Shown one piece after another: positions 21,225 to 37,416 of a stretch of DNA of 64,000 bases. Source of the DNA: Phycisphaerae bacterium (GTDB lineage: Bacteria > Planctomycetota > Phycisphaerae > UBA1845 > UTPLA1); NCBI GenBank assembly GCA_019636475.1, contig JAHBXN010000004.1, positions 62,001 through 126,000 on the forward strand. Reading direction: 5' to 3'. The position numbers were made by a program, and so were the translations under genes. Under the pieces are notes generated by a model. The model saw only the letters and a list, made by a program, of their open reading frames with translations, was not told where the DNA came from and made no database searches. The number at the start of each line of letters is the position of its first letter. The stretch's first letter is position 1.

Positions 21225-21330
21225 GCAGTCGTCAATGCCGAGTGATTGTGGGCTTCGCGGCATACGCACATCTAGAAACAACGGTTGTTTCCTCGGGTCT
21301 CACGCGCGCGGCGACATGAGGTTCCCTTCC

Positions 21331-21534
21331 ATGCAAACGGGCAAGGTCAAGTGGTTCGATGATAAGAAGGGATTCGGATTCATCTCGTCGGCGGAAGGCC
21401 GCGATGTATTCGTCCATTACAGCGAAATCGTCGCGGAGGGCCACAAGACGCTCACGGAAGGGCAGGATGTCGAATTCGAGATTGTTCAGGATGCGAAAGG
21501 GCCGAAGGCCACCCAAGTCAAACCCGTATCGTAA
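21331..21534 (+). CDS. Cold-shock domain protein (CspA family)
   Basis: 67 residues, the usual length. The OB-fold carries both RNA-binding motifs, KGFGFIS (RNP1) and DVFVHY (RNP2), after the typical start [11 protein letters not shown]. It binds single-stranded RNA or DNA and melts structured mRNA. The start at 21331 is preferred because the fold begins there and GAGG lies about ten bases upstream. It ends 48 bases before the convergent CRTAC1 gene, and I see no clear terminator between them. Confidence 0.95.
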
Positions 21535-21582
21535 CTCGACGGACACGACGATCGCCGTTGATGATGGATGCGCCCGCGAGCG

Positions 21583-23388
21583 TCAGTTCAGCGATGGCGC
21601 GTGTGATCCGTGCGCGGAAATCGCATGATCGGATTGTCGAATCATGTGCTGCCGTCCTGCTGAAAAAGGACCGTGCGTGCTTTTCGAGCCGTCGGGCCAG
21701 CTTATCTCGACGCGGTCCACTCTTTCGGCTTCGCCCAGACCGACATGCACGCGGAGATCGTTCGCCGCTGCGAAACTGTAGCCTGACTGCACCTGCCTTC
21801 GCCGCACCACCCCGGCGGCCTCAACCGCGAGTGTCGCACCGACGGCATCCCTTCCGTACTTTTCGAGAATCCGGAACATAACCCAGTTGCCCCGTTCGCC
21901 GGCGACGTTCAACAGCAGGCGCGGCGATCGATCTGACTCCAAGATCAGGATGTCGATGTCGCCGTCGTTGTCGACATCACCAAACGCGACAGCGCGACTG
22001 GAACCCAGCAGCGGGGAACTGGTTCCGCCGGGCGGAGATGCCAGCTCGAACCGGCCGCCTCCGATACCGCGGTAGAGTGATTTCGGCTCGGCATACATAT
22101 CCTGCTCGTCGTCGCATTGCTCGGGGCGCGTGACGGCGCCGTTTCCGATGAAGAGATCCAGCTGACCATCGTGATCGAAGTCGTGAAACCCGACTCCCCA
22201 TCCGGTGTATTTCAGACTTGATGCGCCAAGCCCGCTCGCGGAAGTCCAATCCTCGAAAATGCCGCCGACATTGAGATAGAGCCGGTTTGTCTCGCCGCGA
22301 AGGTGAGTCAGGAAGATGTCGAGATCCCCGTTATCGTCAATGTCGACGGCTTGAACGCCCATGCCGGCCTCGGCGGATCCGCGCGAGTCGAGCGCGCAAC
22401 CGGCCAGCAGCGCCTGGTCTTCAAAGCGACCGTCGCCGAGATTGATCCATAGCTGATTCGGCATTCCATCGTTCGCGACATAGAAATCGGGTCTGCCGTC
22501 CCGATTGAAATCTCCGTGACAGACGCCGAGCCCGTTTCCGAATGCAAGCATGATTCCCGAGTGTTGCGTGACGTCCTCAAAGCGTCCGCCGCCCAGATTA
22601 TGGTAAAGCGCGTCCACGGCCGGGGCGTTGTAGTTGGACGGATTGCAGTATTCCCGACGCCCCGCAGAGTCCCGACAATGCAGTTCATTGCGGGGTGACC
22701 ACGAAACATAGTTGACGACATAGAGGTCGAGCAGTCCGTCGCCATCGTAATCGGCGAAGACGGCGCTGGTGCTCCAGCGACCGCATCGCACGCCCGCGCG
22801 CTCGGTAATATCCTCAAATGTGCCGTCTCCCCGGTTTTGGTAGAGAGTATTGCCGCCGATCGCGGTGACGTAGAGATCAAGATCGCCATCGTTGTCGATG
22901 TCCCCGATGGCGCATCCCATCCCATAATTCAAGTGTCGAATACCGGCCGCTTCGGTCACGTTCATGAATTTTCCATCGCCTAGATTTCGGTAGAGTGTTG
23001 ATCGACTCGAGTCGGGTAGATTGGGGTCAAGCTCTCCGCCTTGCACGAAGAACGCATCGAGCCGGCCGTCGTTGTCGTAGTCGAACAGTCCGCATCCCCC
23101 GGCGATGATTTCCGGAAACCAGAATCGCTGATTTTCGCCGCGAACATGTCTGAACCGGATTCCCGCATCGGCCGTGCCGTCGATGAACCACGGAGCGCCG
23201 ACGGACACGCGGCCGCTGGGATTCGCATCGCCTGACCTGCGGGCGAGCATGTGCGGCCTGGTCATGTAGACCCAGGTGAATCCGGCGCTCAGTGCCACAG
23301 TTATGACTGCGAGCGAGGATATGAATGGCGTACTTCGGGTGCGTGACTGGCGGGGACTGGGTTGCGCAGCATCTCCGGAGCTTGACAT
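21583..23388 (-). CDS. CRTAC1-type protein: FG-GAP repeats with ASPIC/UnbV C-terminal domain
   Basis: About 602 residues from the ATG at 23388, ten bases after the stop of the upstream TPR gene, so the two form an operon. One N-terminal transmembrane segment (near residues 20-40) anchors an exported domain. Repeated FG-GAP/VCBS blades follow, with many calcium-loop-like DxDxDGxxD motifs (for example DYDNDGRLD, DIDNDGDLD, DFNRDGRPD). The C-terminus has the ASPIC/UnbV fingerprint (VGATLAVEAAGVVRRRQVQ, then VGLGEAERVDRVEISWPDG). Such beta-propellers bind calcium and mediate extracellular protein or glycan contacts. The role of the bacterial CRTAC1 group is poorly understood. Confidence 0.85.
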   Translation of the reverse strand: MSSSGDAAQPSPRQSRTRSTPFISSLAVITVALSAGFTWVYMTRPHMLARRSGDANPSGRVSVGAPWFIDGTADAGIRFRHVRGENQRFWFPEIIAGGCGLFDYDNDGRLDAFFVQGGELDPNLPDSSRSTLYRNLGDGKFMNVTEAAGIRHLNYGMGCAIGDIDNDGDLDLYVTAIGGNTLYQNRGDGTFEDITERAGVRCGRWSTSAVFADYDGDGLLDLYVVNYVSWSPRNELHCRDSAGRREYCNPSNYNAPAVDALYHNLGGGRFEDVTQHSGIMLAFGNGLGVCHGDFNRDGRPDFYVANDGMPNQLWINLGDGRFEDQALLAGCALDSRGSAEAGMGVQAVDIDDNGDLDIFLTHLRGETNRLYLNVGGIFEDWTSASGLGASSLKYTGWGVGFHDFDHDGQLDLFIGNGAVTRPEQCDDEQDMYAEPKSLYRGIGGGRFELASPPGGTSSPLLGSSRAVAFGDVDNDGDIDILILESDRSPRLLLNVAGERGNWVMFRILEKYGRDAVGATLAVEAAGVVRRRQVQSGYSFAAANDLRVHVGLGEAERVDRVEISWPDGSKSTHGPFSAGRQHMIRQSDHAISAHGSHAPSLN

Positions 23389-23398
23389 CGCTCGATTC

Positions 23399-24883
23399 TC
23401 ACGGTGATTCGTTCGTTTGCGCGACCTGCTCACGCAGGCGCTTTACTTTTTCATTTTCGGGGTCAATACGCTCCGCCGCTGCAAGAAAGCTTCGTGCCTC
23501 CATCATGTCACCTGCCTTCAGTGCGCAGACGCCGCCGTTCAGATGCGCGACGAGATTCTGCGGAGCAATTTGAGCGGCGAGCGCATACATCCGCCTTGCT
23601 TCATTCCATCGTTGGGTTTTCAGGTAGATATCGCCCTGCTTCATAAGCACATCCGGATTGCGGGCGTCGAGTTTCGCCGCCTGACTCAGTGAATCGAGGG
23701 CCTCGTCGAAGCGATGAAGCAGCGTAAGTACATCGGCCTTGATCATGTGAGCCGCGCCGATTGATGGACCATGAGCCGTGGCGAGTTTGGCGTTGCGAAG
23801 CGCGGAATCGAGATTGTTTGATCGGATATCGAGTGTTGCGAGATTGATATAGATGCTGAAATTCGCCGGATCGTTGCGCTTCGCCAGATCGAGCAGGCGA
23901 CCGGCTTCCGCCATCCGGCTCGTATCGATGTAGATGGCCGCGAGATTGTTGATGATCGAGATGTCGTCGGAGTGCGATTGATACGCCCGTTCCAGTGTCT
24001 GCGCAGCCAAATCGAGTCGACCCGCGCGGCGAAATTCCATGGCTCGCGCGACGACGGCCGTTACGCCAACGCGGAACTCGGCCTCGATCCGGTTCATCCG
24101 ATCAGGGAGGAATCGGGGCTTGGCGGAGGATCCCGTTGCAAGTTCGGGCTTGGCGCGGTCGCGATCTCCGAGTCCGCGGTAGGACAAGCCCAGCAAGTAG
24201 TTTGCGACGGTGTTTCGCGGCTCGATTGCTATCGCTTTCGCGGCAAGATCACGAGCTTCGGCGTAACGCCTCTGGCGAACGCGCACATCCGCCAAGCCGA
24301 TGTATCCCAGTTCACTCATCGGCAGCAGCTCAATGGTTCGACGGAAAGCCGTCTCGGCGGACTCGAGGTCGTCGAGCAGGATTGCGGCATGCCCCAAGCG
24401 GTGCTGGCCCGGCGCAAAACTCCGGTGGCGTTGAGCGATCAGTTTCAGTAACTCAAATGACCGGACATTGTCACCCAACTCCATTTGACAAACCGCCTGG
24501 CGATACAGCCAGACCGACTCGGAGGGGTTCAGCGCCGCTGCATTTGCAAAACATTGTTCAGCCTCGCGGATCATGGCATTGGACTGAAATGCGACGCCCA
24601 GCCGACCATGGGCTTCCGCCGAATTGCGGTCGGCTTTGGCCCGCTCTATTTCGCGTTCGATCAGCCGCAACACGACGGGGTCGATGTCCTTGCGATTGGC
24701 GATGGTAACGACGTCCGGGACTGAGGGTGATGAGCGGTAGAAGTGAAGAATGACAATGCCACCGGCAGCGACCAGCACCAGCGAGACAGCGATCAGCCCA
24801 ATCGGCCGTTGGTTATGTGGTTTGCCGGGCGCGCGCGCACTGCGCGCGGGCCTGCCTGCCTGTCTGGCCCGCTGATTTGACAT
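23399..24883 (-). CDS. Membrane-anchored TPR protein, partner of the downstream CRTAC1 gene
   Basis: 494 residues. A basic N-terminus is followed by one transmembrane helix (about residues 28-48) and then a long array of TPR motifs to the C-terminus (for example AEAHGRLGVAFQSNAMIREA, NNLAAIYIDTSRMAEAGRLL, VLMKQGDIYLKTQRWNEARR). TPR arrays bind other proteins. The gene is immediately upstream of the CRTAC1 gene with a ten-base gap. The neighbouring 1216-residue lipoprotein carries both modules in one chain. Confidence 0.82.
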   Translation of the reverse strand: MSNQRARQAGRPARSARAPGKPHNQRPIGLIAVSLVLVAAGGIVILHFYRSSPSVPDVVTIANRKDIDPVVLRLIEREIERAKADRNSAEAHGRLGVAFQSNAMIREAEQCFANAAALNPSESVWLYRQAVCQMELGDNVRSFELLKLIAQRHRSFAPGQHRLGHAAILLDDLESAETAFRRTIELLPMSELGYIGLADVRVRQRRYAEARDLAAKAIAIEPRNTVANYLLGLSYRGLGDRDRAKPELATGSSAKPRFLPDRMNRIEAEFRVGVTAVVARAMEFRRAGRLDLAAQTLERAYQSHSDDISIINNLAAIYIDTSRMAEAGRLLDLAKRNDPANFSIYINLATLDIRSNNLDSALRNAKLATAHGPSIGAAHMIKADVLTLLHRFDEALDSLSQAAKLDARNPDVLMKQGDIYLKTQRWNEARRMYALAAQIAPQNLVAHLNGGVCALKAGDMMEARSFLAAAERIDPENEKVKRLREQVAQTNESP

Positions 24884-25185
24884 GGCTCGCCTGCCTCTGG
24901 TGATCGCCGGGTCGGGGCGGAATCACCTGAAGTCACCGGTTCAGTTTCGTCCGGCGCGCAAGCGAGCGAGCGGATCGTACTGAACCATGACGCACATCAA
25001 TCGGCCGAGTTGACACTCAGCGCTTCTCCGTACAAGGCTAACGCTGGGTTTTCGTGCGGATCGGTCGCTGCAAGATCACTCTCAAGAATCTTGATAGCCC
25101 GAGAAATCCCATCGCCGGACGAACGTGACGGTGTGAACGGGATTTCTCACGAACGGATTCAGCTTAGCCATTTCCGAATTGCAGT
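24884..25185. other. Intergenic gap without recognised features
   Basis: About 300 bases between two leftward genes. No coding frame with a ribosome-binding site, hairpin with T-run or repeat was recognised. Confidence 0.5.
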
Positions 25186-28100
25186 TCAAGGATTTTCGAG
25201 CGCGGCGCCGGCGGGGGCGTTCGGATCGGGCCGTTCACAGTCCAACATCCGAATTCGGTTTCGAAAAACGGATTGATCACGCCATCGTCGCGCTTGCGGA
25301 GTCGTCGCCCCGTTCGATCCATGCGTGTCTCCGGCTGCGCCTTTGATTGATCGCGGCGGAAACTCGGTCATGGACCGAAACGGCAGCGGCTCGACGGTCT
25401 TGCCGGTTGCCGAGTTCAGATCGCCGTCTTTGAGCCAGCCATCGGTGTGAATGACGAAGCTCCGCGTCCAGCCGGTCGGCAGTGGCGGGGTGGATCCGGC
25501 ATCGAACTGGATTGTGATTTCGTCGCCTGCGCCGACGACGACGTATTGATCGTCGATGGCCTTCAATAGGCCGGTGACATCTCCGAATGGCGTGTACTCA
25601 CCGATCAGGTCCCGCCAGATTCGGTCATGGTCAAGGGCGTCGTAATCCGGAATCATCGGTCCGCCCGGCACGCGGGGGTATTCGATCGAAAATCCCCGAT
25701 CGTGAAGATGACCCGACGAGATCGGCAATTCGGTGACACGGAGTTCCACATCCTGCGGACCGCGCGTCAGGAAGGCATGATCCCAGTAGATAGCGAAATT
25801 TGTTGAAATGCGGAGTTGGTGATCGTTCGTGGGAAACTTCCCCGTCAGATCGTAGACAAGGGTCTTGTTTTTTCCGGAAGGGAATCCGACCGTGATGTCA
25901 AGCGTCTGCCAGTTTCCTTGCGAGTCTTGAACGCTGAAGACCGGCGGCCGCACCGGAATCGTCGGATTCTGCGACACGGCAACATTGGTGCTGGCGTCAG
26001 TCGGCCGGATCCACCCGCGCAGGAAGAGTCGAACCTGCTCGTCCGAAGCGAACTCGCCACAATCCAGAATGAGGTCGTGCTCCTCCATGATGCCTTGATA
26101 TCGCGTCGGCCCAAACTCATCCACAAATCTGCCGTCGGGTTCGCTGAGCAGATCGGTCACATCGGTGCCGTGGCCGGTGATTGCGCGAAGGATCGGCTGG
26201 CTCTGGCGAACTTTGAATAGCTCAAAGGGTGGATAGGGCGGCGTCAGGCACTTCTCGTCAACAAAAAAATTCGTACCGATTGGATGATCGACAACAAACA
26301 GCCGGCAGTAGTCGAAGTAGGCGGTTTCCCAGAGTTCCTCGGTGAATTGCAGAACAAATCGGCCGTTCAGTTCGACAAGTTGATTCCCGTCGATCTTGAA
26401 ATAGTCGTCGGCCGAACCGATGTGACCATACACGCCGGACATGATGGACATGCCCAGCGCGCTGCGCCAGAGGACATCGGTGACGAACTCGAATCGGCTG
26501 CCGTTCCACGCATACAAATAAGGACACGATCCCTTCAAGGTCTGCTCCTCGATTACGACCTGATTCGCGCTGAGTCGTAACCGATCGGACGGGCGATGTT
26601 CGAGATTCTGATAGCTTCCATTGGGCCAGACGACGCGCATGACGTCCGCGTGGTTGTAGGGACCCAGCCCAAAGTGCGTGATCGGCCCCGTTACGGTCTG
26701 CTTCTGATAGTGCAATCCGGCGCGAATCTCGATCGTCGAGTAGAGGCCGAATGAGTTAAATCGCGAGTCGCCGGCGATGAGTGCGTGTAATCCGACGGCG
26801 AGCCAATTTCCGCTGCCGCTTGTGCGGTTGAAAAACACGCGGCCGCCATTTGACAACAGGTCGGGCAGACCGTCGCGATTCAGATCGACGGCGGTGAGTC
26901 GATCTCCCGTGGCCGTGGTCACGTCATTGCGATCGGTGCCGCCGTCGGCCTGCATCCTCAGGAGCTCGATTGATCCGTTGCAATCGAAGTCGGCGGCGAC
27001 CGCTGCAACCGAGCGACGCCCGGGCAACTCCGCGATGTCACGAAGCCGCCGCGTCGTCACGGCGAAATTGTCGCCAATCTCGTATGCATTACAGGCTGCG
27101 GGATCAACGATCTCCATGCGACCGTTGTTGTCGATGTCGGTGATAAGCGGTTCGGCGTCGAGATGTTTGGGGATGCCTGTCAGTTCGGGAGTCACATCCT
27201 TGAAAGTGGCAAGCCGTTCATTGGAAATGACCCGCCAGCCAAACGGTCCATCTCCAAGTGTGATAAACAGGTCTACGTCACCGTCGTCGTCGAGGTCGAT
27301 CGGCTGAACAGAGCGAACGCCAGCCAGGTCCGCCGGCCAGCCCGGCGGCGTCGCGATCGCCGAGAGTGTCCCTTCGCCATCGTTGCGGAGGATCCGAAGC
27401 TGGGAGGCATTCCACTGGATGAGGTCAAGATCGCCGTCGTTGTCGAAGTCGTATACGGCCACGCCAGCCGAACCGCCATCCGCATCGGAAAGGCCGCTCT
27501 CGACTGCTGCGTCCACAAATCGGCCGTCGTCACCAAGACGGAAAATGCGGTCCGCGCTTTTGGTGCAGAGAATCAGGTCCATCCGACGGTCGTTGTTCAA
27601 GTCTGCAAAAAGAGCGAATCGGCAGGGAGGCGCGTCGGCTAAGCCGAAGGTGGCCGTGACATTGACGGGTTTCTCACCCTGGAAAACCACGAGCGAGCCG
27701 GGACCGTCTTCGGAGTAGAAATACACTGCCGGGGAGCGATCGTCGGTCACGGTGCCGAGTGCAAGGCACGTTCGCCGACCCGAAGCAGGATCTCCAATGA
27801 GCGTTTGGAGCGACGAATCCGCCGTGAATTGGATGTCGGCACGGACGGCGGCTGGAGGCTTGCCGGTCAGGACGCCGACCGGATGCCGAATGTACGCCGG
27901 GGCGGCCGTGGCGGATGGACCGAGCGCCAGGATATCAGCTCGATAGCGGTCGCTCTGTCGCATCAGATTGCGAACAATCGAAATGGCACGTTTCACGCCG
28001 GCCTGATCGCGCTTCGATACAGCTTGTCGCAATGTATCGCGCTGCTCGGTCAGCGTGGGAGTGAGTGCCGAGCAGATCGCGAATACACGATCCATATAGT

Positions 28101-28836
28101 TACGCGCCAAGTCGAGGCGCTCGCTGTCGGCCGCAGCCTGGGCAGCGGAGAGCAGCGCGGCAAGGTTTCGTGGCACGGCCTTGACGAGGTTCTCATGGAG
28201 TCTGTGTCGGGTCTTCGCGTCGGAGTCCGATTGGTTGCCGACAAGCGCGATCATCATCCAGAGTGCGGGTACGTGGTCGGGTTGTGCTTCCAGCACGCCT
28301 TCAAGGATTTGACGTGCTTCGGAGTCGCGCCCAGTCGCGGCGAGGATGCCTGAGCGGATCAATCGAATGCCAGTGTTCTCGGGAGCGCCGGCTTCGGCCT
28401 GACGGGACCACTCCTCGGCTTCGGGCAGATTCTGTTGATGGAGGCGGGCCAACGCCAGATTGGCGAGAACGGCTGGGTCGCGGATTCCGTGTGCGATCAG
28501 CTCGACGTAGATCGCTGCCGCCTGTTCGTTGCGATCCATTTCGAGGTCGGCGTTCGCTTGATAGAACGACCCGAGACGCTCGATCGGGAACTCAATCGGA
28601 GGTCCCGATTGGGGCGGTTGCCGTTCGCTGGACGGTTGGCCTGCTGCGGTTGTGGGCTGCGAGGCGGGCGGAGCAGGCTTTCGATCGCAGGAAACGATCA
28701 GAAGAAGTCCGAACAGAACGGACGCTGACCGCAGTCGGACGTGACGGCAAGGTCGCGCGGTATCGGATGGACGCGATGTCCGGCTGTACTGTCGCATGCG
28801 ATGTTCCATGGCCAGTGGATTCCCAGCGGACATCAT
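25186..28836 (-). CDS. Large lipoprotein fusing TPR repeats with FG-GAP and ASPIC/UnbV domains
   Basis: 1216 residues from 28836, with other ATG codons shortly after. A signal peptide ends in a lipobox (LLLIVSC, Cys near residue 51), so the protein is probably lipid-anchored. Next come a Pro/Ser/Gln-rich linker and helical TPR-like repeats (about residues 85-290). FG-GAP blades with calcium-loop motifs follow (DFDNDGDLD, DLDDDGDVD, DIDNNGRME), then an ASPIC/UnbV domain (STIEIRAGLHYQKQ, FGLGPYNHADVMRVVWPNG). The last ~400 residues are a further beta-rich region starting near CPYLYAWNGSRFEFV. It combines the modules of the two genes to its left. Function is unknown; a surface-binding or assembly role is an inference. 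Confidence 0.82.
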   Translation of the reverse strand: MMSAGNPLAMEHRMRQYSRTSRPSDTARPCRHVRLRSASVLFGLLLIVSCDRKPAPPASQPTTAAGQPSSERQPPQSGPPIEFPIERLGSFYQANADLEMDRNEQAAAIYVELIAHGIRDPAVLANLALARLHQQNLPEAEEWSRQAEAGAPENTGIRLIRSGILAATGRDSEARQILEGVLEAQPDHVPALWMMIALVGNQSDSDAKTRHRLHENLVKAVPRNLAALLSAAQAAADSERLDLARNYMDRVFAICSALTPTLTEQRDTLRQAVSKRDQAGVKRAISIVRNLMRQSDRYRADILALGPSATAAPAYIRHPVGVLTGKPPAAVRADIQFTADSSLQTLIGDPASGRRTCLALGTVTDDRSPAVYFYSEDGPGSLVVFQGEKPVNVTATFGLADAPPCRFALFADLNNDRRMDLILCTKSADRIFRLGDDGRFVDAAVESGLSDADGGSAGVAVYDFDNDGDLDLIQWNASQLRILRNDGEGTLSAIATPPGWPADLAGVRSVQPIDLDDDGDVDLFITLGDGPFGWRVISNERLATFKDVTPELTGIPKHLDAEPLITDIDNNGRMEIVDPAACNAYEIGDNFAVTTRRLRDIAELPGRRSVAAVAADFDCNGSIELLRMQADGGTDRNDVTTATGDRLTAVDLNRDGLPDLLSNGGRVFFNRTSGSGNWLAVGLHALIAGDSRFNSFGLYSTIEIRAGLHYQKQTVTGPITHFGLGPYNHADVMRVVWPNGSYQNLEHRPSDRLRLSANQVVIEEQTLKGSCPYLYAWNGSRFEFVTDVLWRSALGMSIMSGVYGHIGSADDYFKIDGNQLVELNGRFVLQFTEELWETAYFDYCRLFVVDHPIGTNFFVDEKCLTPPYPPFELFKVRQSQPILRAITGHGTDVTDLLSEPDGRFVDEFGPTRYQGIMEEHDLILDCGEFASDEQVRLFLRGWIRPTDASTNVAVSQNPTIPVRPPVFSVQDSQGNWQTLDITVGFPSGKNKTLVYDLTGKFPTNDHQLRISTNFAIYWDHAFLTRGPQDVELRVTELPISSGHLHDRGFSIEYPRVPGGPMIPDYDALDHDRIWRDLIGEYTPFGDVTGLLKAIDDQYVVVGAGDEITIQFDAGSTPPLPTGWTRSFVIHTDGWLKDGDLNSATGKTVEPLPFRSMTEFPPRSIKGAAGDTHGSNGATTPQARRWRDQSVFRNRIRMLDCERPDPNAPAGAALENP

Positions 28837-29010
28837 AACCGGCGAATCACCCGACGATCGACCGTTCGTTGGAGCGAGGCGAAAGTCCGCGCGGTCCGGG
28901 TCGGATTCTCCGCGGAGCGGAATCTATCCGGCCGCGGTCGCGGATGATAGGATGTGGGGATTGAGAAACGAGCATTCGGCGAGCGGCCCCAGAGCGCGGA
29001 GCGGCAAACC

Positions 29011-30996
29011 ATGAAAAAACAAACCCGAAAGAGAATCGTGAAGACCTGCATCGCGGCCGCGCCGGTCCTCGGAATGCAGGCGGGATGCGACCGCACGGCG
29101 ACGACGCCGACAAGTGCTCCGAAAGACAATGCGCCGGCACGCGCGACCGACGCCGAATCACCCCCAATCGACGCATCGTCGCCCGGTTCCATTTCAGCCG
29201 GCTCCTCCGAGGATTCGCGCCCACCGGCATCGTCTCGCTCGATCCCCCCGGGAGACTCCCGGCCGACAGCCGCCGATTCATCCGCCGGCCGAGTGAGCGA
29301 GCCGGCGCAGTCGATGTCGTCCACCGAGGGCTTCGTGCCTCCGGAGGTGGACCTGTCAAGATTCTCCGCGGATGAGCGTCAACTGGTGCTCCGCTCGCGG
29401 GAGCGCGCGATCGATGCGCCGACCAGCGCCGATCGAATCGCCGATTTCGGTCTGCACCTTTGCGTGCGGGGCTTCTATGAGCAGGCGGCGGTCTGCTTCG
29501 AGCGTGCGTCTTCGCTGCTGCCGAAGGTCATGCGATACCGGTACCTCGCCGCGATCGCCTATGAGTCCGCGGGACAGACATCGAAGGCGATCGACTCGTT
29601 TCGACGGTCCATCGAGCTCGAGGGCAAATATCCGGCCGCGTTCAGCAATCTCGGGAATCTCATCATCGACAGCGACCCGATCGAAGCCCATTCCGCCTTT
29701 GAAAAGGCCGTGGAACTGGATCCGACGGATGTGATCGCCGTGTATGGCCTGGCCCGCTGCGAGCGCCGGTCGGGCAACGTGGAACGGGCAATCACCTGGT
29801 TGAAGCGGGCGATCGAGTTGCAGCCGACCTACCGGGACGCGCTGCTGGAGCTGGCTGAGCTTGAGCGATCCCAGGGAAACAACGACGCTGCGGCGCTCCA
29901 CACGTCCCAGGCGGAGCGGGACGGTCGCAAGGGGCTGGTCAGAAACGATCCGATTCGCTTTGAGCTCGCGGCCTACTCGCGCACCGAGGCCGACATCGCG
30001 AAGGAGGCCCTGGACACCGCGAAGAGCGGCCGAGTCGACGAGGCCATCAAGTTTCTTCGAGCCACGACGCGGCGGGGCATTCGCAGCGTCGAGATTCTTC
30101 AGGCGTTTGGCGAGGTGCTCGCAATGGCGGGCCGCCACGATGAAGCCATCCTGAAATATCAGGACGCGCTGAAGATTCAGCCCGATTCCAGCGCCTTGCG
30201 CCTGCTGATCGCCGATTCGCTCATCCAGCTGCGGGAATACGATCAGGCCGAGACCTACCTGCATGAGGCGGCGGCGCACGAGAAGACGGAGGATGCCATC
30301 ACCATCAATCGGCTCGGCGTCATCGACATGATCCGGGGCCGGTCGAAGGAGGCTGAGGAAAAGTTCCGCAAGGCCGCCGCGCTGAGCCCCGGCGACGCCA
30401 TTCATTATTTCTCGCTCGCGCAGTGCCTGGCCGCGCAGGGCCGGCTGGACGAGTCGATGTCGGAGATCGAGAAGGCGGCCCGGCTGGATGCCGCCAATGC
30501 GGACATCCTGCTGTTCCGCGGGCGATTGCTGGCGCAGCTTGGCAGGCCGGAGGAGGCCCTCGCCGACTATCGAAAGGTTATTGAGCTTCGCCCGGCATCG
30601 GCGGACGCCTACGTTCTTGCGGCCGAGACGGCGCGGGGCCAGGGGAATGAGGCGGCATCCGTCGGCTTTCTGGAGGCGGGCTTCAAGGCGGCGCCGGAGT
30701 CGGCGGTGATTGCGAATGACCTGTCCTATTCGCTGGCGACCTGCGCGGACAAGTCGCTTCGGAATCCGGAGCGTGCGATCGAGCTGGGCCGTCGCGCGTG
30801 TGCGTCGACGTTGAACGGCAACGCCAACTATCTCGATACCCTCGCGTCGGCCTACGCGGCCGCGGGTGATTTCGTGAATGCGGCATCGACGCTCGGGAAG
30901 GCGATTGATCGGGCGCGGGAATCCGGGGCGACCGAGGCGGAGCTGGACGGGATGCGGGCGCGGTTGAAGACCTACGAGGCCGGATCGGGCCGTTAG
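29011..30996 (+). CDS. TPR-repeat lipoprotein
   Basis: About 661 residues from the ATG at 29011; in-frame sequence upstream to 28954 is not signal-like. The start is Met-Lys-Lys-Gln-Thr-Arg-Lys, followed by a short hydrophobic segment and a Cys in GMQAGC, a plausible lipobox. Residues ~30-110 are Ser/Pro/Ala-rich, and the rest is a long run of TPR motifs (AAVCFERASSLLPKVMRYRY, AITWLKRAIELQPTYRDALL, AINRL-type helices to the end). It is divergent from the 1216-residue lipoprotein, with about 175 bases between the starts. It probably acts as a scaffold at the membrane. Confidence 0.8.
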   Translation: MKKQTRKRIVKTCIAAAPVLGMQAGCDRTATTPTSAPKDNAPARATDAESPPIDASSPGSISAGSSEDSRPPASSRSIPPGDSRPTAADSSAGRVSEPAQSMSSTEGFVPPEVDLSRFSADERQLVLRSRERAIDAPTSADRIADFGLHLCVRGFYEQAAVCFERASSLLPKVMRYRYLAAIAYESAGQTSKAIDSFRRSIELEGKYPAAFSNLGNLIIDSDPIEAHSAFEKAVELDPTDVIAVYGLARCERRSGNVERAITWLKRAIELQPTYRDALLELAELERSQGNNDAAALHTSQAERDGRKGLVRNDPIRFELAAYSRTEADIAKEALDTAKSGRVDEAIKFLRATTRRGIRSVEILQAFGEVLAMAGRHDEAILKYQDALKIQPDSSALRLLIADSLIQLREYDQAETYLHEAAAHEKTEDAITINRLGVIDMIRGRSKEAEEKFRKAAALSPGDAIHYFSLAQCLAAQGRLDESMSEIEKAARLDAANADILLFRGRLLAQLGRPEEALADYRKVIELRPASADAYVLAAETARGQGNEAASVGFLEAGFKAAPESAVIANDLSYSLATCADKSLRNPERAIELGRRACASTLNGNANYLDTLASAYAAAGDFVNAASTLGKAIDRARESGATEAELDGMRARLKTYEAGSGR

Positions 30997-31039
30997 GCCG
31001 GCGGCGGATCGCCGCCCCGAATCGCGGTCCGGCGGCCGC

Positions 31040-31240
31040 GAAACCCCGTCCCGCAGCGCCCAGACGCCGTTCCAAAGGCCCGAAACGCCCCCGCGCGTCC
31101 ATCCCAATCCCTCCCGCATCCCTCAAATGCCGCTTCACGGCCATAAAATGGCCCCGCGCATCCATCAAATTCCGGATTTCATGGATCAAACCCCCGGTCT
31201 GCTCCACAAGAATCCGGAACTTATGGATGTAAACCCATGT
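31040..31240. repeat. Degenerate 63-nt repeat units, locus A
   Basis: At least two units of about 63 bases begin with CCGCGCATCCAT or CCGCGCGTCCAT (near 31090 and 31153). The second unit contains the near-palindrome ATCCATCAAATT...ATTTCATGGAT followed by CAAAC.CCCGGT. A matching unit occurs at 44656-44820. On the minus strand the units read as 21-residue periods starting MDAR, but no gene is evident. Confidence 0.6.
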
Positions 31241-31332
31241 TGCGACCGTGGTTTACGACGATTCCATGCCGGATCGCCACCCGCCGGGGCCGCAACCGGC
31301 AGGTCGCATCCGCAGCGGATCGGCCAGGGGCC

Positions 31333-31373
31333 AAAAGAAAAGGGGCGGCCAGCCCATCGGCTGACCGCCCCTT
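31333..31373 (-). terminator. Rho-independent terminator of the PEP-CTERM gene
   Basis: Read leftward, AAGGGGCGGTCAGCC pairs with GGCTGGCCGCCCCTT (15 bp, one G-U) around the loop GATG, and is followed by the T-rich TTTCTTTT. It lies about 70 bases after the stop codon of the PEP-CTERM gene. Confidence 0.85.
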
Positions 31374-31439
31374 GCTCAATTCATTGCAGTCGGCACCGCC
31401 CGCCGCGCTGTCGCACGACGGCACATAGCCGAAGGCTGC

Positions 31440-32441
31440 TTAGCGTCGTCGGCGGATGAAGCCGATGGCGCCGAGGGCCAGCAACGTGAGGGTCGCCGGC
31501 TCGGGAACGTAGTTCAGGCTCAGGCTGTAGTTGCCCTGAGTGGTGCCACCCGTGATGTCGTTGAGCGTCGCACCGAAAACGGTGTTCCAGCCACCAACAA
31601 CCACCGTGTAGGTGCCGGCCGGAAGGGCCAGACCGTGGAAACCAGGAGCGACCTGGTTCACGCCGCCGGCCCAGGGGTCCGCCGCGCCGAAGGACAGCAT
31701 GCTGTGTCCGGGAGGGAAGCCGCCGTTGCCGTCGTCATCATCGGCGATGTAGTTGCCGCCGCCGTCATAGAGACCGAGCTCGGTGTCCATGCCGGTCGTG
31801 CGGATGTTGAGGTAGTCAGCGAGGTTCGACACGCCGTACGGCAGGGTGAAGGTGTAGCGATCGGTGATGCCGTTGGAAAGAAGGTCGCCGTTGACCTTCA
31901 GCGTGCTGCCGTCATTGTTCAGGGCGCCGAGATTGATGTTCTCGCCGACGTCCGGCGGAGTCGCGTCGTTGATGGTGATGGTCAGGTCGTTCCAGAGGGA
32001 GTCCGGATTTCCGGGATCGTTGTAGCTCTCGAAGAACTCGAAGGTCCAGACGCCGACCGAGGTGCCGGTCAACAGGCCGTTGCTGTTGATGTTGGCATTG
32101 ATGTTGAGCGACGTGAAAGTGGTGCCGGCTGTTCCCGGGAGGGCGCCGGTGAAGACGCACACGCTGGGATTGCAGATTTCAACGCGGGCCTCGTTCGACC
32201 AGGTGCCGGGGTCGACCGACACGAGCGTGCCGGTGATGTTGACGATGCCCGGGACAAAATCCGGACCGGCATGGTTGTAAGTGAAGCTGCCGTTACCCGT
32301 GCCGACGACACCCGCGCCCACGCCGCGCGCCGAATTCGACGGAACGCCGTTCTGGACGGGCGTCGTGAAGCCGGCGATGGCGCTGCCGGCGCTGATGGCG
32401 ACCAGCGCGGCGGTCATCGTCATTCCTCTTACCAATCTCAT
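31440..32441 (-). CDS. Secreted protein with PEP-CTERM sorting signal
   Basis: 333 residues from the ATG at 32441, selected because GAGGAGG lies about eight bases upstream; the open frame continues to 32561 without support. A signal peptide ends at SAIAG. The middle is beta-rich with two repeats that look like pre-peptidase C-terminal or jelly-roll segments (DRYTFTLPYGVS, LGLYDGGGNYIADDDDGNGG). The C-terminus is the PEP-CTERM signal: VPEP, a hydrophobic helix (ATLTLLALGAIGF) and IRRRR. Such proteins are cleaved and exported by exosortase with the exopolysaccharide system. No exosortase is in this window. A terminator follows. Confidence 0.88.
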   Translation of the reverse strand: MRLVRGMTMTAALVAISAGSAIAGFTTPVQNGVPSNSARGVGAGVVGTGNGSFTYNHAGPDFVPGIVNITGTLVSVDPGTWSNEARVEICNPSVCVFTGALPGTAGTTFTSLNINANINSNGLLTGTSVGVWTFEFFESYNDPGNPDSLWNDLTITINDATPPDVGENINLGALNNDGSTLKVNGDLLSNGITDRYTFTLPYGVSNLADYLNIRTTGMDTELGLYDGGGNYIADDDDGNGGFPPGHSMLSFGAADPWAGGVNQVAPGFHGLALPAGTYTVVVGGWNTVFGATLNDITGGTTQGNYSLSLNYVPEPATLTLLALGAIGFIRRRR

Positions 32442-32907
32442 GTTCGTTTCCTCCTCTTTCTTCTTCCCCGAGGATGTTTGAAGAGGCCCCCGGGACACCC
32501 TGAAACTGCTGTCTGGGCGGGCGGGCACACGCCGCTTCACCCACTCGATTGCAGGATTCAAATTATCCAGCGATTAGAGATAAGCTCAGGATCCGAAGAG
32601 AAGCCGAACGCGAACGCGCCGACGCTTCCCTCACCTCCGAATCTTTACCTCTCCAAAGTGCGAGTTTAACCGAGCGTGAACAGCCGAATCAAGTGTTTTT
32701 GAAATCCGCCGAAGTTTTTTTGTTGCTGCGCGGAGCACTCGTTTCGATGGGCTTGATTGGCCGGCGACCGGGATTTGTGCCGTAACCTGATTCAGGGAAA
32801 GATGTTATGGATTTCAGCCTGCCCGGGTCGGGTCTGTGGGGGATGCCATCGTCCCGGCTCCCTGCGGAGGGCCTGCCCCTTCGGATGTGAGGCTGGACGC
32901 AGGTGCG
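32442..32907. other. Intergenic region; leader of the PEP-CTERM gene
   Basis: No gene is seen. On the minus strand TTGATT (32687-32692) and TAAACT (32663-32668), 18 bases apart, form a weak promoter candidate. It would give the PEP-CTERM mRNA a leader of about 215 bases. The remainder holds only a T-rich patch (32697-32724). Confidence 0.35.
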
Positions 32908-34830
32908 TTATTGCCCCGCAAGCTTCTTCGCGCGTTCCAGTTTCGCGCGCTCTTTCGATCCGATCCGATGCGGATCGATCTCAATCGCCCGCTCATACTC
33001 TCGAACAGCGTCAGAATACCTGCCGACCTGCATGTAGGTGTCGCCGCGAAGCAACGGTATCGAACCGCGCTTCGGTTCCATGACCTCCGCCGCCCTGAGC
33101 GCGCGCTCGAACTCGTCCCAGCGGTTCAAAACCGCAAGATTCTTCGCAAGATGCAGAAACAGATTGGTGCTCGGATGGCGTTTTACATACTCGTCGAGCA
33201 GTGCAACCGCCTCGGCATGTCGTCCGAGGCCCTCGTAGATGTGGGCGACGGTGTGCACCGGTGTTTCGAATCCGTCGGTCTGCCGCATCAGTTCCTCAGC
33301 CATGGCCAGTCCTTCGTCGACGCGGCCACTCTTGACCAGTTCGATCGCTTTCTCATTTTTTTCGAACAGCGCGATGCGGTGCTTGGCATCGGGCAGGACC
33401 GCCTCGTCGGATACAGTGACGCCGCCGGCATAGCCGAGCGACTCGAGCTGCGCGATTTCGGCGCTGGTCATGGATCGCACACCACCGCGACCGCTCCTGA
33501 TCTGCGGAAACGCCGCGTACAACTCGCGGAGTTCGCGTTCGCAGGGAACCATTTCGACGGGTGCGTTGACGTAGAGGTTTGTGAGCTCGTTTCGGTCTGC
33601 AACGAGATCGTAGAATTCGGGTTCCGGTGCGTCGATGAATTTTGCCTTGAGCGAACGCACGCCGAAATAAGGCGCGCAGCCGCGGCCCTCCTTCGGGTAC
33701 ATCGATTCGATGAACACCATGCGATCCGCGGGGATTCGCTGATGGTTCAGTGCGATTCCGTCCATATCGGGCAGCGCCGGCAATCCGAGCAGGCTCAGCA
33801 GCGTCGGGGCAATATCGGTGGTGGCCGCAAGATGATTCTCGATCCGCAACTCGGATTCGAAGAGACTCGGTGACGAAAAAACCAGTGCGGCGCGCATCGT
33901 TGCTTCGTAGATGAAGATGCCGTGGCCTGATTCTCCGTGTTCGTTCAGGGATTCACCATGATCGGTGGTGAAGACGATCAACGTGCTGTCTCGCAGCCCC
34001 TGACGATCCAACTGTGAAAGAAGCCGACCCAGTTCCGCATCCGCATATGCAATTTCGGCATCGTACGGGCGATCAGCGAACTCAGGCTGATTCGCAAGTG
34101 GAGAAACGTATGGATTGTGCGGATCGTAATAATGAACCCATAGAAAGAAGGGCGGCGCACCATCGACTTTGCGGTCCTTGCTCAGCCAGTTGAGTGCGGC
34201 ATCCGTGACGGCCGCGGCATCACGTTGATTCAGAATCGATTCCGGGCCGGCACGGCCCTTTGATGTGACGGCGAAATCGTAGGTGTCAAATCCCTGGCTC
34301 AGGCCGAATCGCTCATCCAGCACAAAACAGCTGACGAAAGCGGCGGTCGAATAGCCCGCCTGCTTGAAACGTTCGGCGAGCGTCTCCGCCGACTGTGGCA
34401 GCTCATATCCGGTGTTGGTGCGGACACCGTGCCGATAGGGATATTGTCCGGTCAAGATGGTTGTATGGGATGGGAGCGTAAGAGGGACGGTTGTCGTGGC
34501 ATTCAGGAAGGTGATGCCGCGTTTGCCGAGGCCGTCGATGGAAGGGGTCCGGGCATGCGAATAGCCGTACAGACCCAGGTGGTCCGGCCGAGTCGTATCA
34601 AAGGTGACCAGAAGCACGTTTTGTCCGCGCGCCGCGCCGGGCGGCGGCATCCCAAGTTCATTCGGGCCGGCGCTTGCGTACAACCACGCCGCAATCCCGG
34701 CGCCGGCGGCCGCGATCAATATGATTGAAGAGATCCACGCCGTTCGAGTCAGTGCCGCGGCGCGGCAATGGGTCGAGCGGGGCCTTCCTGCCGAAGCGGG
34801 TACAACGCGGGTCTGAATCGGTCGAGTCAC
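32908..34830 (-). CDS. Sulfatase-fold (alkaline phosphatase superfamily) protein with C-terminal TPR, non-canonical active site
   Basis: 640 residues. One transmembrane helix near residues 30-52 precedes a sulfatase fold (about 70-470). Metal-binding residues are present: D78 in FDTTRPDHLG and D290-H291 in FTTDHGES. Where true sulfatases have C/S-X-P-X-R, this protein has T118-L-P-S-H122, so formylglycine cannot form in the usual way. Thr is the nucleophile in related phosphoethanolamine transferases, so phosphate or phosphonate chemistry is possible. The last ~150 residues are TPR repeats (AEAVALLDEYVKRHPSTNLF, YSDAVREYERAIEIDPHRIG). It follows the SGNH-TPR gene after a 7-base gap, so the pair is an operon. 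Confidence 0.85.
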   Translation of the reverse strand: MTRPIQTRVVPASAGRPRSTHCRAAALTRTAWISSIILIAAAGAGIAAWLYASAGPNELGMPPPGAARGQNVLLVTFDTTRPDHLGLYGYSHARTPSIDGLGKRGITFLNATTTVPLTLPSHTTILTGQYPYRHGVRTNTGYELPQSAETLAERFKQAGYSTAAFVSCFVLDERFGLSQGFDTYDFAVTSKGRAGPESILNQRDAAAVTDAALNWLSKDRKVDGAPPFFLWVHYYDPHNPYVSPLANQPEFADRPYDAEIAYADAELGRLLSQLDRQGLRDSTLIVFTTDHGESLNEHGESGHGIFIYEATMRAALVFSSPSLFESELRIENHLAATTDIAPTLLSLLGLPALPDMDGIALNHQRIPADRMVFIESMYPKEGRGCAPYFGVRSLKAKFIDAPEPEFYDLVADRNELTNLYVNAPVEMVPCERELRELYAAFPQIRSGRGGVRSMTSAEIAQLESLGYAGGVTVSDEAVLPDAKHRIALFEKNEKAIELVKSGRVDEGLAMAEELMRQTDGFETPVHTVAHIYEGLGRHAEAVALLDEYVKRHPSTNLFLHLAKNLAVLNRWDEFERALRAAEVMEPKRGSIPLLRGDTYMQVGRYSDAVREYERAIEIDPHRIGSKERAKLERAKKLAGQ

Positions 34831-34837
34831 TTTCGTC

Positions 34838-37297
34838 TCATCCTGATTGTTTTTCGAGAGTTTCCAGCATGGCCTGGGCCCGCTGATGGCCGGGACTTAG
34901 TCGAAGGGCTTCGCCAAGCTGATCGATTGCCTCCTGCCGACGGCCCAACTTCTGCATTACCAGCGCTGCCTTGTATCGAATCTCCGCGGAGTCGGGCAAC
35001 TTTGCGATCGCGAGTTCCGCATGTATCCGAGCCTGCTCGTTCTTGTCGGTCCGGAGCAGATAATCGATCAACGCCGCATTGACATTGACGTCGGTCGGGA
35101 AGTCTCGCGACGCCTGCGTCAGCGCGGCGATCGCGTCGTCGGTTCGCAGCAGGTACGCCAGCGCACTGGCAAGATTCAGCCGATAGGTCGGGTTCCGCGG
35201 CTCGCGCGCAGCCGCCGCCGTGAATTCGCGGATGGCTGCATCGGAATCGCCCTGGCTGAGGAGAATCTGTCCGAGATTCGTACGAACATCGGAGCGGGCC
35301 GGGCGAAACTTCAGCGCGGAAAGGTAGAGTGCACGAGCCTCGTCAAGCCGCCCGGACTGATGGGCGAGAATTCCGAGATTAAAAAGCGTGTTGGCCTGGC
35401 ACGCATCGTCACAGTAATCGAGGCCGGCCGCGGCCCTCAGCAGGGATTCGGCATCCGCGTTGCGTCCTTGCCGGGCAACAGCTCGACCGAGATTCGCGGC
35501 GATCGCTGCGTCGAATGGGAAAGCCTTCAATGCTTCGCGAAGGTTCTGTTCCGCTTCCGCGAAGCGGTCGCCGGCCATCAGCAGCTCGGCATAATTGGCG
35601 CGAACGAGCGGATCATTCGGATCGATTGCGAGGGCCCGATCAAAGGTGTCGCAATAAGTCTTGAAACTCTCAGGTGTCTGGAGCGATGCCAATTCGTTAA
35701 GCCGGCGCTCGACACGTTCGCGGTGCTCCTCGACATCCATGGCGGCTGAGAAGGGCGGCTTATTCAGCAATCCTGAAATGGCTTTCAGGCTCGTCTCTTC
35801 CGCGTAGGGCGTAAACGCGAGTCGTTCCATCACGCGATCGATGGAGCAGGGTTTGGCTTCGCCCGTGGACAGTTTCCGGATGGATTCAGGAAGTCCCGGC
35901 AGCAACGCATCGAAGAGAAGCCGGGCTATCTCGTAGTTGCCGAGGAATGTCATGTGGCAATGTTCGTGGAACAGCTCTTTTCCCGGAGCACCGAGACCGG
36001 CCGGATCGTTCAGAGCCATGTATCGTTCGACATCGACGAGCCGAACGCCACCGTCCTGCGACGACACAACCCGGCGTATCGTCTCATTTTCGTTTTGATC
36101 CGTGCGGAATCGGAGAACATCCAGGTTACGAGCAATGGCATAGTGCTGGTTGGCAGGTTGCCGCAGGTTCAACGCCGATTGGCAGCGGGCAATGCGGTAG
36201 TGCAACTCCGCGTGCTGGTCATCGATTTTTGCCGCGGCCTGATAGCGGTCGATCGCGGCGGCGAAATCGCCACGTTCGGCGAGCCGGACTCCATCGGCGT
36301 ATGTTGCATTCCATTCGGCAAGATCATCCGGCGTGAGGTCTTCGCGATGTTGCGAAGCGAATGGAGCGCAGTCACGCAGATTCACGCCGACAGTGCACAG
36401 AAGCACCCGCGCGCCGGCGTCGCGCCCGGTGCGGCAGATATCCTTCAGATTGCGCTCGAAATGGTGGTACACGGCATCGAGCCGTGAATCGGTGGCGGCA
36501 ACGGGACGATCGAGGAAGAATTCCATTCCCTTCCATTCCATTCCTGTTTCGTCCGAAGCCCGGAGAAGGCTCATTCCGTGTCCCGCGACCTGAACAAGCC
36601 GCAGCCGCGCCAATGCGAGATTCGTGCGAATCGCCCAAAGGCGATCCGAAAAGTCGCGAAAGACTGTGCCGGGACCGAAGGGGCCGACGACCTCATTATT
36701 GCCCTCATAAATAATGAACGTGTCCGGCTCAAACTCGGCGCAGTCTCGCGCTATTTGGAGCACAACATGTGAATTCACTGCGACCATCGCCGTATTGATC
36801 ACTTCGAACCGGGCGGTTGGAAAGGCATCACAAAGCATCGCGTCCAAAATTCTCGCGAAGCTGAATGTCGAATCCGGAAAACCCTGGGCGGCCGACGACC
36901 CGAGTACAAAAATGCGATACGCGCCGCGCTGTTTTCTCGCATCCATGACGAAAGGCGTCGGCAGCCGAGCGACAGACCTCGGGAAGTAACGCCAGCCGAC
37001 ACGCGGGTTTCCATAGACCGATTTACCGCCACCCAGCGGAACAAAGAACGACGGATCATAGCCTGCGCCGCCTAATCGAAGTCCGACTTCAATTGATCCG
37101 AACAGCATGGCCGGAATGAGCAGCATCGCCGCAAGGCGGAAGGCCCAGATTCGCCAGCGCGATGCCGTGCGTCGCGGTCGCCCGAGATCAGTCATTGCCT
37201 CGGATCCGTTCGTCGACGCTGTGGGTTGAGAGGCACCGGAGACTTTCGCAGGTCTGGACATTCGGAGTTCGGTATCGGGTCTGGTTCGGTGCGACAT
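34838..37297 (-). CDS. Membrane-anchored SGNH-hydrolase-like protein with long C-terminal TPR array
   Basis: About 819 residues from the ATG at 37297; ATG at 37261 or 37195 and GTG at 37324 are other candidates, none with a strong ribosome-binding site. A transmembrane helix (SRWRIWAFRLAAMLLIPAML) precedes an SGNH-like domain: VLGSSAAQGFPDSTFSF, VINTAMVAVNSH, YEGNNEVVGP and the C-terminal His block EHCHMTFLGNYEIA. The Asp usually found before the catalytic His is not evident. The rest contains a TPR pair inside the hydrolase region and about ten TPR-like repeats to the end. It is co-transcribed with the sulfatase-fold TPR protein. A role in modifying a surface polymer is an inference from both partners. 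Confidence 0.8.
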   Translation of the reverse strand: MSHRTRPDTELRMSRPAKVSGASQPTASTNGSEAMTDLGRPRRTASRWRIWAFRLAAMLLIPAMLFGSIEVGLRLGGAGYDPSFFVPLGGGKSVYGNPRVGWRYFPRSVARLPTPFVMDARKQRGAYRIFVLGSSAAQGFPDSTFSFARILDAMLCDAFPTARFEVINTAMVAVNSHVVLQIARDCAEFEPDTFIIYEGNNEVVGPFGPGTVFRDFSDRLWAIRTNLALARLRLVQVAGHGMSLLRASDETGMEWKGMEFFLDRPVAATDSRLDAVYHHFERNLKDICRTGRDAGARVLLCTVGVNLRDCAPFASQHREDLTPDDLAEWNATYADGVRLAERGDFAAAIDRYQAAAKIDDQHAELHYRIARCQSALNLRQPANQHYAIARNLDVLRFRTDQNENETIRRVVSSQDGGVRLVDVERYMALNDPAGLGAPGKELFHEHCHMTFLGNYEIARLLFDALLPGLPESIRKLSTGEAKPCSIDRVMERLAFTPYAEETSLKAISGLLNKPPFSAAMDVEEHRERVERRLNELASLQTPESFKTYCDTFDRALAIDPNDPLVRANYAELLMAGDRFAEAEQNLREALKAFPFDAAIAANLGRAVARQGRNADAESLLRAAAGLDYCDDACQANTLFNLGILAHQSGRLDEARALYLSALKFRPARSDVRTNLGQILLSQGDSDAAIREFTAAAAREPRNPTYRLNLASALAYLLRTDDAIAALTQASRDFPTDVNVNAALIDYLLRTDKNEQARIHAELAIAKLPDSAEIRYKAALVMQKLGRRQEAIDQLGEALRLSPGHQRAQAMLETLEKQSG

Positions 37298-37416
37298 GCG
37301 ACCGATTGATCGCGATTGCGCCACGCAACGCCGGATCGCGTATCATGAGAGAGTATATTCTGTGAATCTCAGTCGAGCGAATGTTGAACTGAACAGAATC
37401 TCCCCGGTGAATTGCG

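Follow-up and report, generated by a model that had tools for sequence, protein, structure and literature searches.

Recurrent pairing of TPR and CRTAC1-type genes in Planctomycetota, beside a larger protein built from the same modules

A gene for a tetratricopeptide-repeat (TPR) protein and a gene for a CRTAC1-type protein lie side by side in the window, the whole 64,000-nucleotide stretch of DNA analyzed here, next to a larger gene, FUS, that holds both modules in one chain. Do the two separate proteins work together, and is FUS their fused form? The earlier note had placed the TPR and CRTAC1 genes next to each other, and both their coordinates and their domains agree with the open reading frame (ORF) list and Pfam. 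The features are listed below; ORFs are mechanical calls with predicted start codons.

21583-23388, minus strand: CRTAC1-type gene, 601 aa (ORF list, Pfam)
21652-21846, minus strand: UnbV_ASPIC domain of the split CRTAC1, residues 515-579 (Pfam, E 2.3e-15)
23399-24883, minus strand: TPR gene, 494 aa (ORF list, Pfam)
25186-28836, minus strand: FUS gene (TPR, propeller, partial ASPIC and C-terminal domain), 1216 aa (ORF list, Pfam)
25279-26556, minus strand: FUS C-terminal domain, residues 761-1186, predicted beta-rich (conserved, without Pfam match)
26581-26688, minus strand: partial ASPIC/UnbV of FUS, residues 717-752, profile positions 30-65 of 68 (Pfam)
26752-27828, minus strand: FG-GAP-type propeller of FUS, approximately residues 337-695 (structure model)
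27922-28587, minus strand: TPR region of FUS, approximately residues 84-305, 13 predicted helices (structure model; TPR score 59)
28954-30996, plus strand: divergent TPR protein, 680 aa (Pfam)
31440-32561, minus strand: PEP-CTERM protein (Pfam)

Only 10 nt separate the TPR stop codon (23401-23399) from the CRTAC1 ATG (23388), a distance read by eye; scripted gaps were measured from the last sense codon, so actual gaps are shorter by 3 nt. The FUS and TPR genes lie 302 nt apart. By consensus scan, 21300-31500 lacks any promoter-like site, and the 302-nt gap lacks a terminator-like one. Together with the 10-nt spacing, this makes it likely that the split pair shares a single transcript. Counterparts of the flanking genes occur at the L067 cluster of a same-family genome, with an ORF similar to the 680-aa TPR protein (30% identity) at its edge and, inside it, an ORF weakly similar to the PEP-CTERM protein with the same tail type. 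The window's genome also contains an exosortase match.

The split CRTAC1-type protein has an N-terminal hydrophobic segment, an FG-GAP/VCBS propeller in which the D-x-[DN]-x-DG motif occurs six times and, near the C-terminus, an ASPIC/UnbV domain. Both domains exceed their Pfam cut-offs (FG-GAP_3, E 1.8e-51, 173 bits versus 26.9; UnbV_ASPIC, E 2.3e-15, 56.7 bits versus 23.4), and the protein matches the sequence of the murine CRTAC1 structure 9etn (E 2.6e-14). By sequence, it is a member of the CRTAC1/ASPIC-UnbV family. Vertebrate CRTAC1 has a C-terminal EGF-like part. The Pfam table of the split protein holds FG-GAP and UnbV families only, with no EGF family, and 22 residues follow the UnbV domain; this difference bears on the vertebrate type and not on membership in the bacterial family.

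Its TPR neighbor carries a transmembrane-like segment at approximately residues 30-46, followed by 5 + 6 repeats in two blocks. Its 18 Pfam matches comprise TPR and related helical-repeat families only, with no SusD family among them, and neither protein of the pair contains a CxxCH motif. Over the whole protein, the concave TPR face shows no higher conservation than the remaining exposed residues (p 0.63 and 0.61). In the first repeats, concave-face conservation looked better in both clades.

The pairing recurs in relatives. Among CRTAC1-like ORFs from the same family and order, the window's included, 42 of 63 have an adjacent same-strand TPR ORF, compared with 4/221 in the control; these ORFs scored at least 150 bits with 60% query coverage and came from stretches chosen from the better-scoring matches listed. 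Thirty of the 42 neighbors are plain TPR proteins and 12 combine five CxxCH motifs with TPR, while 21 of the 63 ORFs lack an adjacent TPR. Within the window gene's own clade, the neighbor is present in 26/27 cases and in both gene orders: upstream in the window's nine-row subclade and downstream in the rest of the clade, L110 excepted. Across the phylum, we took the best listed match from each of 43 genomes (two were replaced, the original lying at a contig edge; five ORFs are short fragments of 159-257 aa) and found a TPR beside or inside the ORF in 14, versus 1/63 in the control, and neither beside nor inside in 29. TPRs were called with a position-specific matrix scored on three repeats in tandem, and this matrix told Pfam-checked TPR proteins apart from those without TPR; the Pfam scans left out L078, L079, L083 and L134. 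The earlier note had proposed conservation in relatives as a check on the pair, and the counts in the family and order and in the pair's own clade bear it out. Altogether, the TPR-CRTAC1 pairing is real and above chance.

We further investigated whether FUS is the fused form of this pair, as the earlier note had implied. FUS matches TPR_19, FG-GAP_3 and UnbV_ASPIC in Pfam, murine CRTAC1 (9etn) is the top solved-structure match of its whole model, and PVL lectin entries are among the matches. A predicted lipoprotein signal (IVSC, Cys50) fits its earlier description as a lipoprotein. The reported combination of TPR, FG-GAP and ASPIC/UnbV also stands, with the ASPIC match partial, but that account overlooked the C-terminal domain, which makes up approximately 35% of the protein. 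Because residues 761-1186 form this separate conserved domain, FUS is not simply TPR plus CRTAC1. Fold searches of the domain did not yield a clear family: the best Foldseek E is 2.3e-3, and galactose-binding-like sandwiches align to its middle part with modest Z scores (7.2-9.9 as listed), CBM and discoidin-type entries being frequent among the matches to model residues ~113-270.

The FUS family is widespread but patchy (67/199 phylum genomes), and its C-terminal domain recurs in the order sample as well as phylum-wide. In the propeller tree, all 30 CRTAC1 rows fall together (support 99), apart from all 14 FUS propellers used; the CRTAC1 rows were hand-picked, and FUS propellers were cut by alignment columns, with 4 of 18 left out. 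A first tree left out 21/119 sequences for low profile coverage or length, including the window's FUS, and both trees were quick searches. By these sequence comparisons, FUS is a separate family, an older relative with the same two modules and a third domain in one chain. With its propeller a distinct lineage and an extra domain attached, the Rosetta-stone link from FUS to the split pair fails.

Placement of FUS beside a CRTAC1-family gene is recurrent, not general: it was found for 9/18 FUS genes in the order sample, one of which (L083) is a 135-aa contig-end fragment, and a CRTAC1-family ORF lies within 500 nt in 7/41 cases of the phylum sample, after two of nine (L295 and L304) were discounted as overlapping-ORF artefacts. 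In the phylum sample, 31/41 FUS proteins have their own TPR and 0/41 have an adjacent same-strand TPR gene, a pattern of own TPR instead of neighbor that is weakened by at least three order-sample cases (the window, L071 and L067) in which a TPR gene directly follows FUS. A contig scan caught by a generic propeller motif returned mostly Flavobacteriia, and L137 is the one full-length FUS relative among its listed matches.

Other single-chain proteins join the modules in several ways. TPR, FG-GAP and UnbV occur in one chain in L238 (by Pfam) and in L242, where TPR was called by the TPR score; UnbV, redoxin and TPR are joined in L231 and L243, and FG-GAP, UnbV and TPR in L086, whose TPR repeat is just above the cut-off. 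In L068, a member of the same group as L086, Pfam finds no TPR. The CRTAC1 halves of L238 and L242 group with the split genes of TPR-to-CRTAC1 order at support 94 in both trees, not a strong value, and L238 is a long branch in the propeller tree. Their TPR halves match the split TPRs only at E 6e-4 to 8, most weaker than 6e-4. Chains of this type would be better Rosetta-stone candidates than FUS. For 26 TPR/CRTAC1 pairs, the two distance matrices have a correlation of r 0.81 (maximum of 5000 permutations, 0.30), a value to be read knowing that linked genes co-diverge anyway, and only 10/26 pairs have the same nearest neighbor in both matrices.

TPR and CRTAC1 genes recur as neighbors, whichever comes first, and some are fused; their products therefore probably cooperate outside the cytoplasm. 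On balance we lean toward a two-gene, probably two-protein module there. The TPR protein would be anchored by its N-terminal membrane segment and act as the scaffold on which the exported CRTAC1-type propeller docks. The Ca-motif propeller and the ASPIC face of the CRTAC1-type protein may then be offered to a ligand or to some larger partner. The pairing is probably an old unit put to repeated use: it outlasted a change of gene order, TPR and UnbV are joined in one chain in several ways, and in other lineages a five-CxxCH protein carries the TPR. Physical contact, the location, the ligand and a single transcript are all inferred.

Operon pairing indicates functional linkage, not contact. The two proteins could instead be functional neighbors that never touch, merely co-expressed within a shared pathway such as surface assembly or uptake; operon structure by itself accounts for adjacency and co-divergence, and the concave face is not clearly conserved. 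Several fusions in differing arrangements and retention through the gene-order change fit contact better, and we consider this alternative possible but rather unlikely. A place for the pair in an electron-transfer or redox system is improbable: proteins with five CxxCH plus TPR, four CxxCH or ten CxxCH adjoin CRTAC1 in other clades, UnbV-redoxin-TPR fusions exist, and passages of PMC12758564 put a CRTAC1 gene near hydrazine-synthase homologues, but the window pair is free of CxxCH and Pfam finds no redox family among ten window proteins scanned.

That FUS arose directly by fusion of the neighboring pair, or gave rise to it by fission, was rejected as very improbable, since the propeller tree puts FUS outside the CRTAC1 group and the C-terminal domain recurs from order to phylum; FUS does adjoin the pair with the same two modules, and L071 repeats the one-strand order FUS-TPR-CRTAC1. 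Chance adjacency has the least to recommend it: TPR genes might be too common in these genomes for adjacency to matter, and Pfam finds several within the 64-kb window alone, but both controls reject it, and we give it almost no credence.

The docking module preferred here could also be general: a propeller receptor on a TPR scaffold that recurs throughout Planctomycetota with effectors that can be exchanged (plain TPR, five-CxxCH plus TPR, redoxin plus TPR, or everything in a single chain whose third domain is sugar-binding-like), CRTAC1 next to SusD being its counterpart in Bacteroidota; this extension is speculative. UnbV matches occur in 84/119 Planctomycetota genomes, and in the literature searched we found no bacterial function for UnbV-bearing proteins. 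A conserved partner makes this unexplained propeller a testable complex. The swap to heme-motif or redoxin-bearing TPR partners gives a prediction of where these complexes work and may be relevant to the CRTAC1 gene that passages of PMC12758564 describe beside hydrazine-synthase-like genes. A TPR-CRTAC1 operon was not found in the open-access literature searched; the Poribacteria (PMC3909097) and Solibacter (PMC3174227) passages only list the domain.

Among known systems, PrsT, the XrtA/PEP-CTERM TPR protein (TIGR02917), resembles the locus in being the top NCBIfam match of both the split and the divergent TPR protein, with a PEP-CTERM gene close by; membership was rejected, as scores of 96.1 and 145.5 bits, respectively, fall under the cut-off of 312.2. 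SusD has a TPR fold. CRTAC1-type ORFs, by our cut-offs, are present in 66 of the 80 mostly Bacteroidota loci of the contig scan and often adjoin SusD (29/66), as part of SusC/SusD uptake cassettes; the window's TPR protein differs, with TPR and related repeat matches in place of a SusD family match. The hydrazine-synthase-like clusters of some Planctomycetota, in the passages of PMC12758564, likewise have a CRTAC1 family gene beside them, whereas the window pair is without CxxCH. With the CRTAC1/ASPIC-UnbV family, the window gene shares the propeller with its D-x-[DN]-x-DG motifs and the ASPIC/UnbV domain; it differs in its bacterial origin and its TPR gene partner. More broadly, in the passages of PMC8023676, the VCBS superfamily propellers (PVL lectin, tachylectin, integrins) have FG-GAP blades and the DxDxDG motif in common with the window proteins.

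The TPR gene, the CRTAC1-type gene and the 1216-amino-acid (aa) gene described in the earlier note were borne out by ORF calling and Pfam, and all three lie on the minus strand:

21583-23388, minus strand: CRTAC1-type gene, with an ASPIC/UnbV domain and FG-GAP repeats (Pfam)
23399-24883, minus strand: TPR gene, with solely TPR and related repeats (Pfam)
25186-28836, minus strand: 1216-aa predicted lipoprotein gene (its family is called FUS here), with part of ASPIC, FG-GAP and TPR (Pfam)
25279-26556, minus strand: conserved C-terminal domain of FUS, residues 761-1186

The TPR stop and the CRTAC1 start are separated by 10 nt, and the pair and the large gene by 302 nt. A scan of the region of the three genes gave no promoter-like site, and no terminator-like site was seen in the 302-nt gap. 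An N-terminal hydrophobic segment is strong in the TPR protein of the pair and weaker in the CRTAC1 protein, and both proteins lack a CxxCH motif.

Co-occurrence of the pair proved stronger than the earlier note could know. The query CRTAC1 protein matched in 49 of 61 genomes of its own, the same family and the same order. Stretches were fetched around the better-scoring hits and around large-gene hits, ORFs were called mechanically, and TPR was scored with a matrix whose calibration used shuffled ORFs. Counting the window's own, 42/63 CRTAC1-like ORFs have a same-strand TPR ORF no more than 300 nt away: in 24 it is upstream alone, in 16 downstream alone and in 2 on both sides. The remaining 21 lack one, and among control genes from the same stretches the figure is 4/221. 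By our count, 30 of the 42 have a plain TPR partner and 12 a five-CxxCH protein with TPR. In a 98-row tree, the window CRTAC1 gene falls within a 27-row clade (support 100), where 26 rows have a TPR neighbour, that of locus L089 at 321 nt; none was found in the available stretch of the other row, L110. The TPR gene is upstream in the window gene's 9-row subclade and downstream in the remaining rows, and the pairing therefore outlasted a switch in gene order. Distances of 26 TPR/CRTAC1 pairs correlate (r 0.81 versus at most 0.30 in permutations), with the same nearest neighbour for both proteins in only 10 pairs. This co-divergence shows that the pairs travel together; it does not prove that the proteins touch, because linked genes correlate anyway.

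Across the phylum, UnbV matches occurred in 84/119 genomes. We examined 43 loci, one each from 43 of the 84, those among the matches listed: TPR was in an adjacent gene at 10, inside the same ORF at 4, either at 14 and neither at 29, and the control gave 1/63. By Pfam, L238 is a TPR-FG-GAP-UnbV fusion, L231 and L243 are UnbV-redoxin (AhpC/TSA)-TPR proteins, and L229 has the same make-up with one repeat family. The window's own genome encodes an FG-GAP-UnbV-TPR protein (L086) with a repeat barely above its cut-off; Pfam found no TPR in L068, grouped with it in the tree. L238 and L242 cluster with the split TPR-then-CRTAC1 genes L220, L222 and L225 at support 94 in the 98-row tree, and a second tree with L238 alone again gave 94, L238 being a long branch. 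The TPR halves of L238 and L242 match the split TPRs weakly.

The large gene had been read as a fused form of the neighbouring pair, from which physical interaction was argued on Rosetta-stone grounds. This argument fails, as the FUS propeller is not close to split CRTAC1 in the second tree: the 30 CRTAC1 rows all fall into a single group (support 99), and all 14 FUS propellers used lie outside it. The window's FUS propeller and that of genome G016 form a pair.

The FUS family is broad yet patchy. A match extending into its C-terminal domain was found in 14/61 genomes of the order sample (our count), in 67/199 across the phylum and in 0/12 from other orders of the same class, and FUS is present in a MAG labelled Flavobacteriales (L137). 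The phylum search gave mostly one copy of this domain per genome; the window's genome holds a second (L073, G000:C3:216369-217622). In the order sample, all 17 full-length FUS ORFs were scored as containing TPR, and N-terminal TPR is clear in 31 of 41 FUS ORFs from 40 fetched phylum loci, none of the 41 having an adjacent same-strand TPR gene. A TPR gene directly follows FUS in at least three order-level cases (window, L071 and the same-family L067). At 7/18 order-level loci, FUS has a CRTAC1-family ORF no more than 500 nt away, convergent in three of them; the window and L071 have one too, with one TPR gene intervening. The phylum sample gave 7/41 within 500 nt (the script's 9 minus two overlap artefacts) and 5 further at 500-2600 nt, three of these being weak matches; in L137, the CRTAC1 ORF starts right where FUS ends. 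These counts show that both kinds of gene are repeatedly co-located, and FUS and CRTAC1 genes are thus recurrent neighbours of different descent.

The earlier note named TPR, FG-GAP and ASPIC/UnbV modules in the large protein and overlooked its last third (residues 761-1186). The FUS model (mean pLDDT 77.5, pTM 0.61) has murine CRTAC1 (9etn, E 6.5e-16) as top solved match, with PVL lectin entries further down. No Pfam match was found for residues 761-1186. Alone, this domain has a confident predicted fold (mean pLDDT 85, pTM 0.86), and Foldseek found no match at E 0.001. A second aligner matched its middle part to many CBM, discoidin and similar sandwiches (Z 7.2-9.9), a likeness that may reflect no more than a common arrangement.

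Export is likely for both proteins of the pair. The TPR protein would stay anchored by its N-terminal hydrophobic segment and tether the CRTAC1 propeller to the membrane or wall, with the propeller facing a ligand. The propeller's superfamily includes lectins and integrins, which use calcium in binding sugars or proteins (PMC8023676). FUS would do the same job within a single polypeptide that may have a third binding domain. Near the three genes lie a PEP-CTERM gene and a gene for a TPR protein; the G016 cluster has an ORF similar to each (30% identity for the TPR protein, 29% for the PEP-CTERM protein), and the window's genome has an exosortase match, which fits a surface setting and does not prove it. 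On the strand of the PEP-CTERM gene and upstream of it (window 32908-37324, minus), a sulfatase with C-terminal TPR adjoins a GDSL/SGNH-type protein with TPR, whose GDSL match is below the Pfam cut-off.

Among 80 loci, most of them from Bacteroidota, a CRTAC1-type ORF passed our cut-offs in 66, and a SusD-type ORF adjoins it in 29 of these, SusD identity being confirmed by Pfam in 3/3 scanned. SusD has a TPR fold. In L150, L151, L163, L165, L167 and others, Bacteroidota cassettes encode SusC-SusD and, after them, between one and three CRTAC1-type proteins, each about 1100 aa long.

CRTAC1 genes of other clades adjoin three kinds of CxxCH protein. Those with five motifs and C-terminal TPR (951-1045 aa) directly precede CRTAC1 in 11 order-level loci, and a 917-aa one follows it in L125; this is apparently a widespread operon. 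Others have four motifs and no TPR, or ten:

L067:8892-11831, L084:11642-14623, L109:2055-5096 and others: five-CxxCH proteins with TPR
L074:2749-5679, L136:1392-4316: ten-CxxCH proteins beside CRTAC1, with propeller matches in L074

Four-CxxCH proteins (710-826 aa) precede CRTAC1 in L117, L119, L122, L128, L129, L130 and L132, and a 638-639-aa protein of one kind comes next in L117, L128 and L129; these loci are possibly an electron-transfer cluster. The ten-CxxCH loci are reminiscent of published hydrazine-synthase-like neighbourhoods: in some Planctomycetota, as PMC12758564 describes, a CRTAC1 gene adjoins hydrazine-synthase-like genes.
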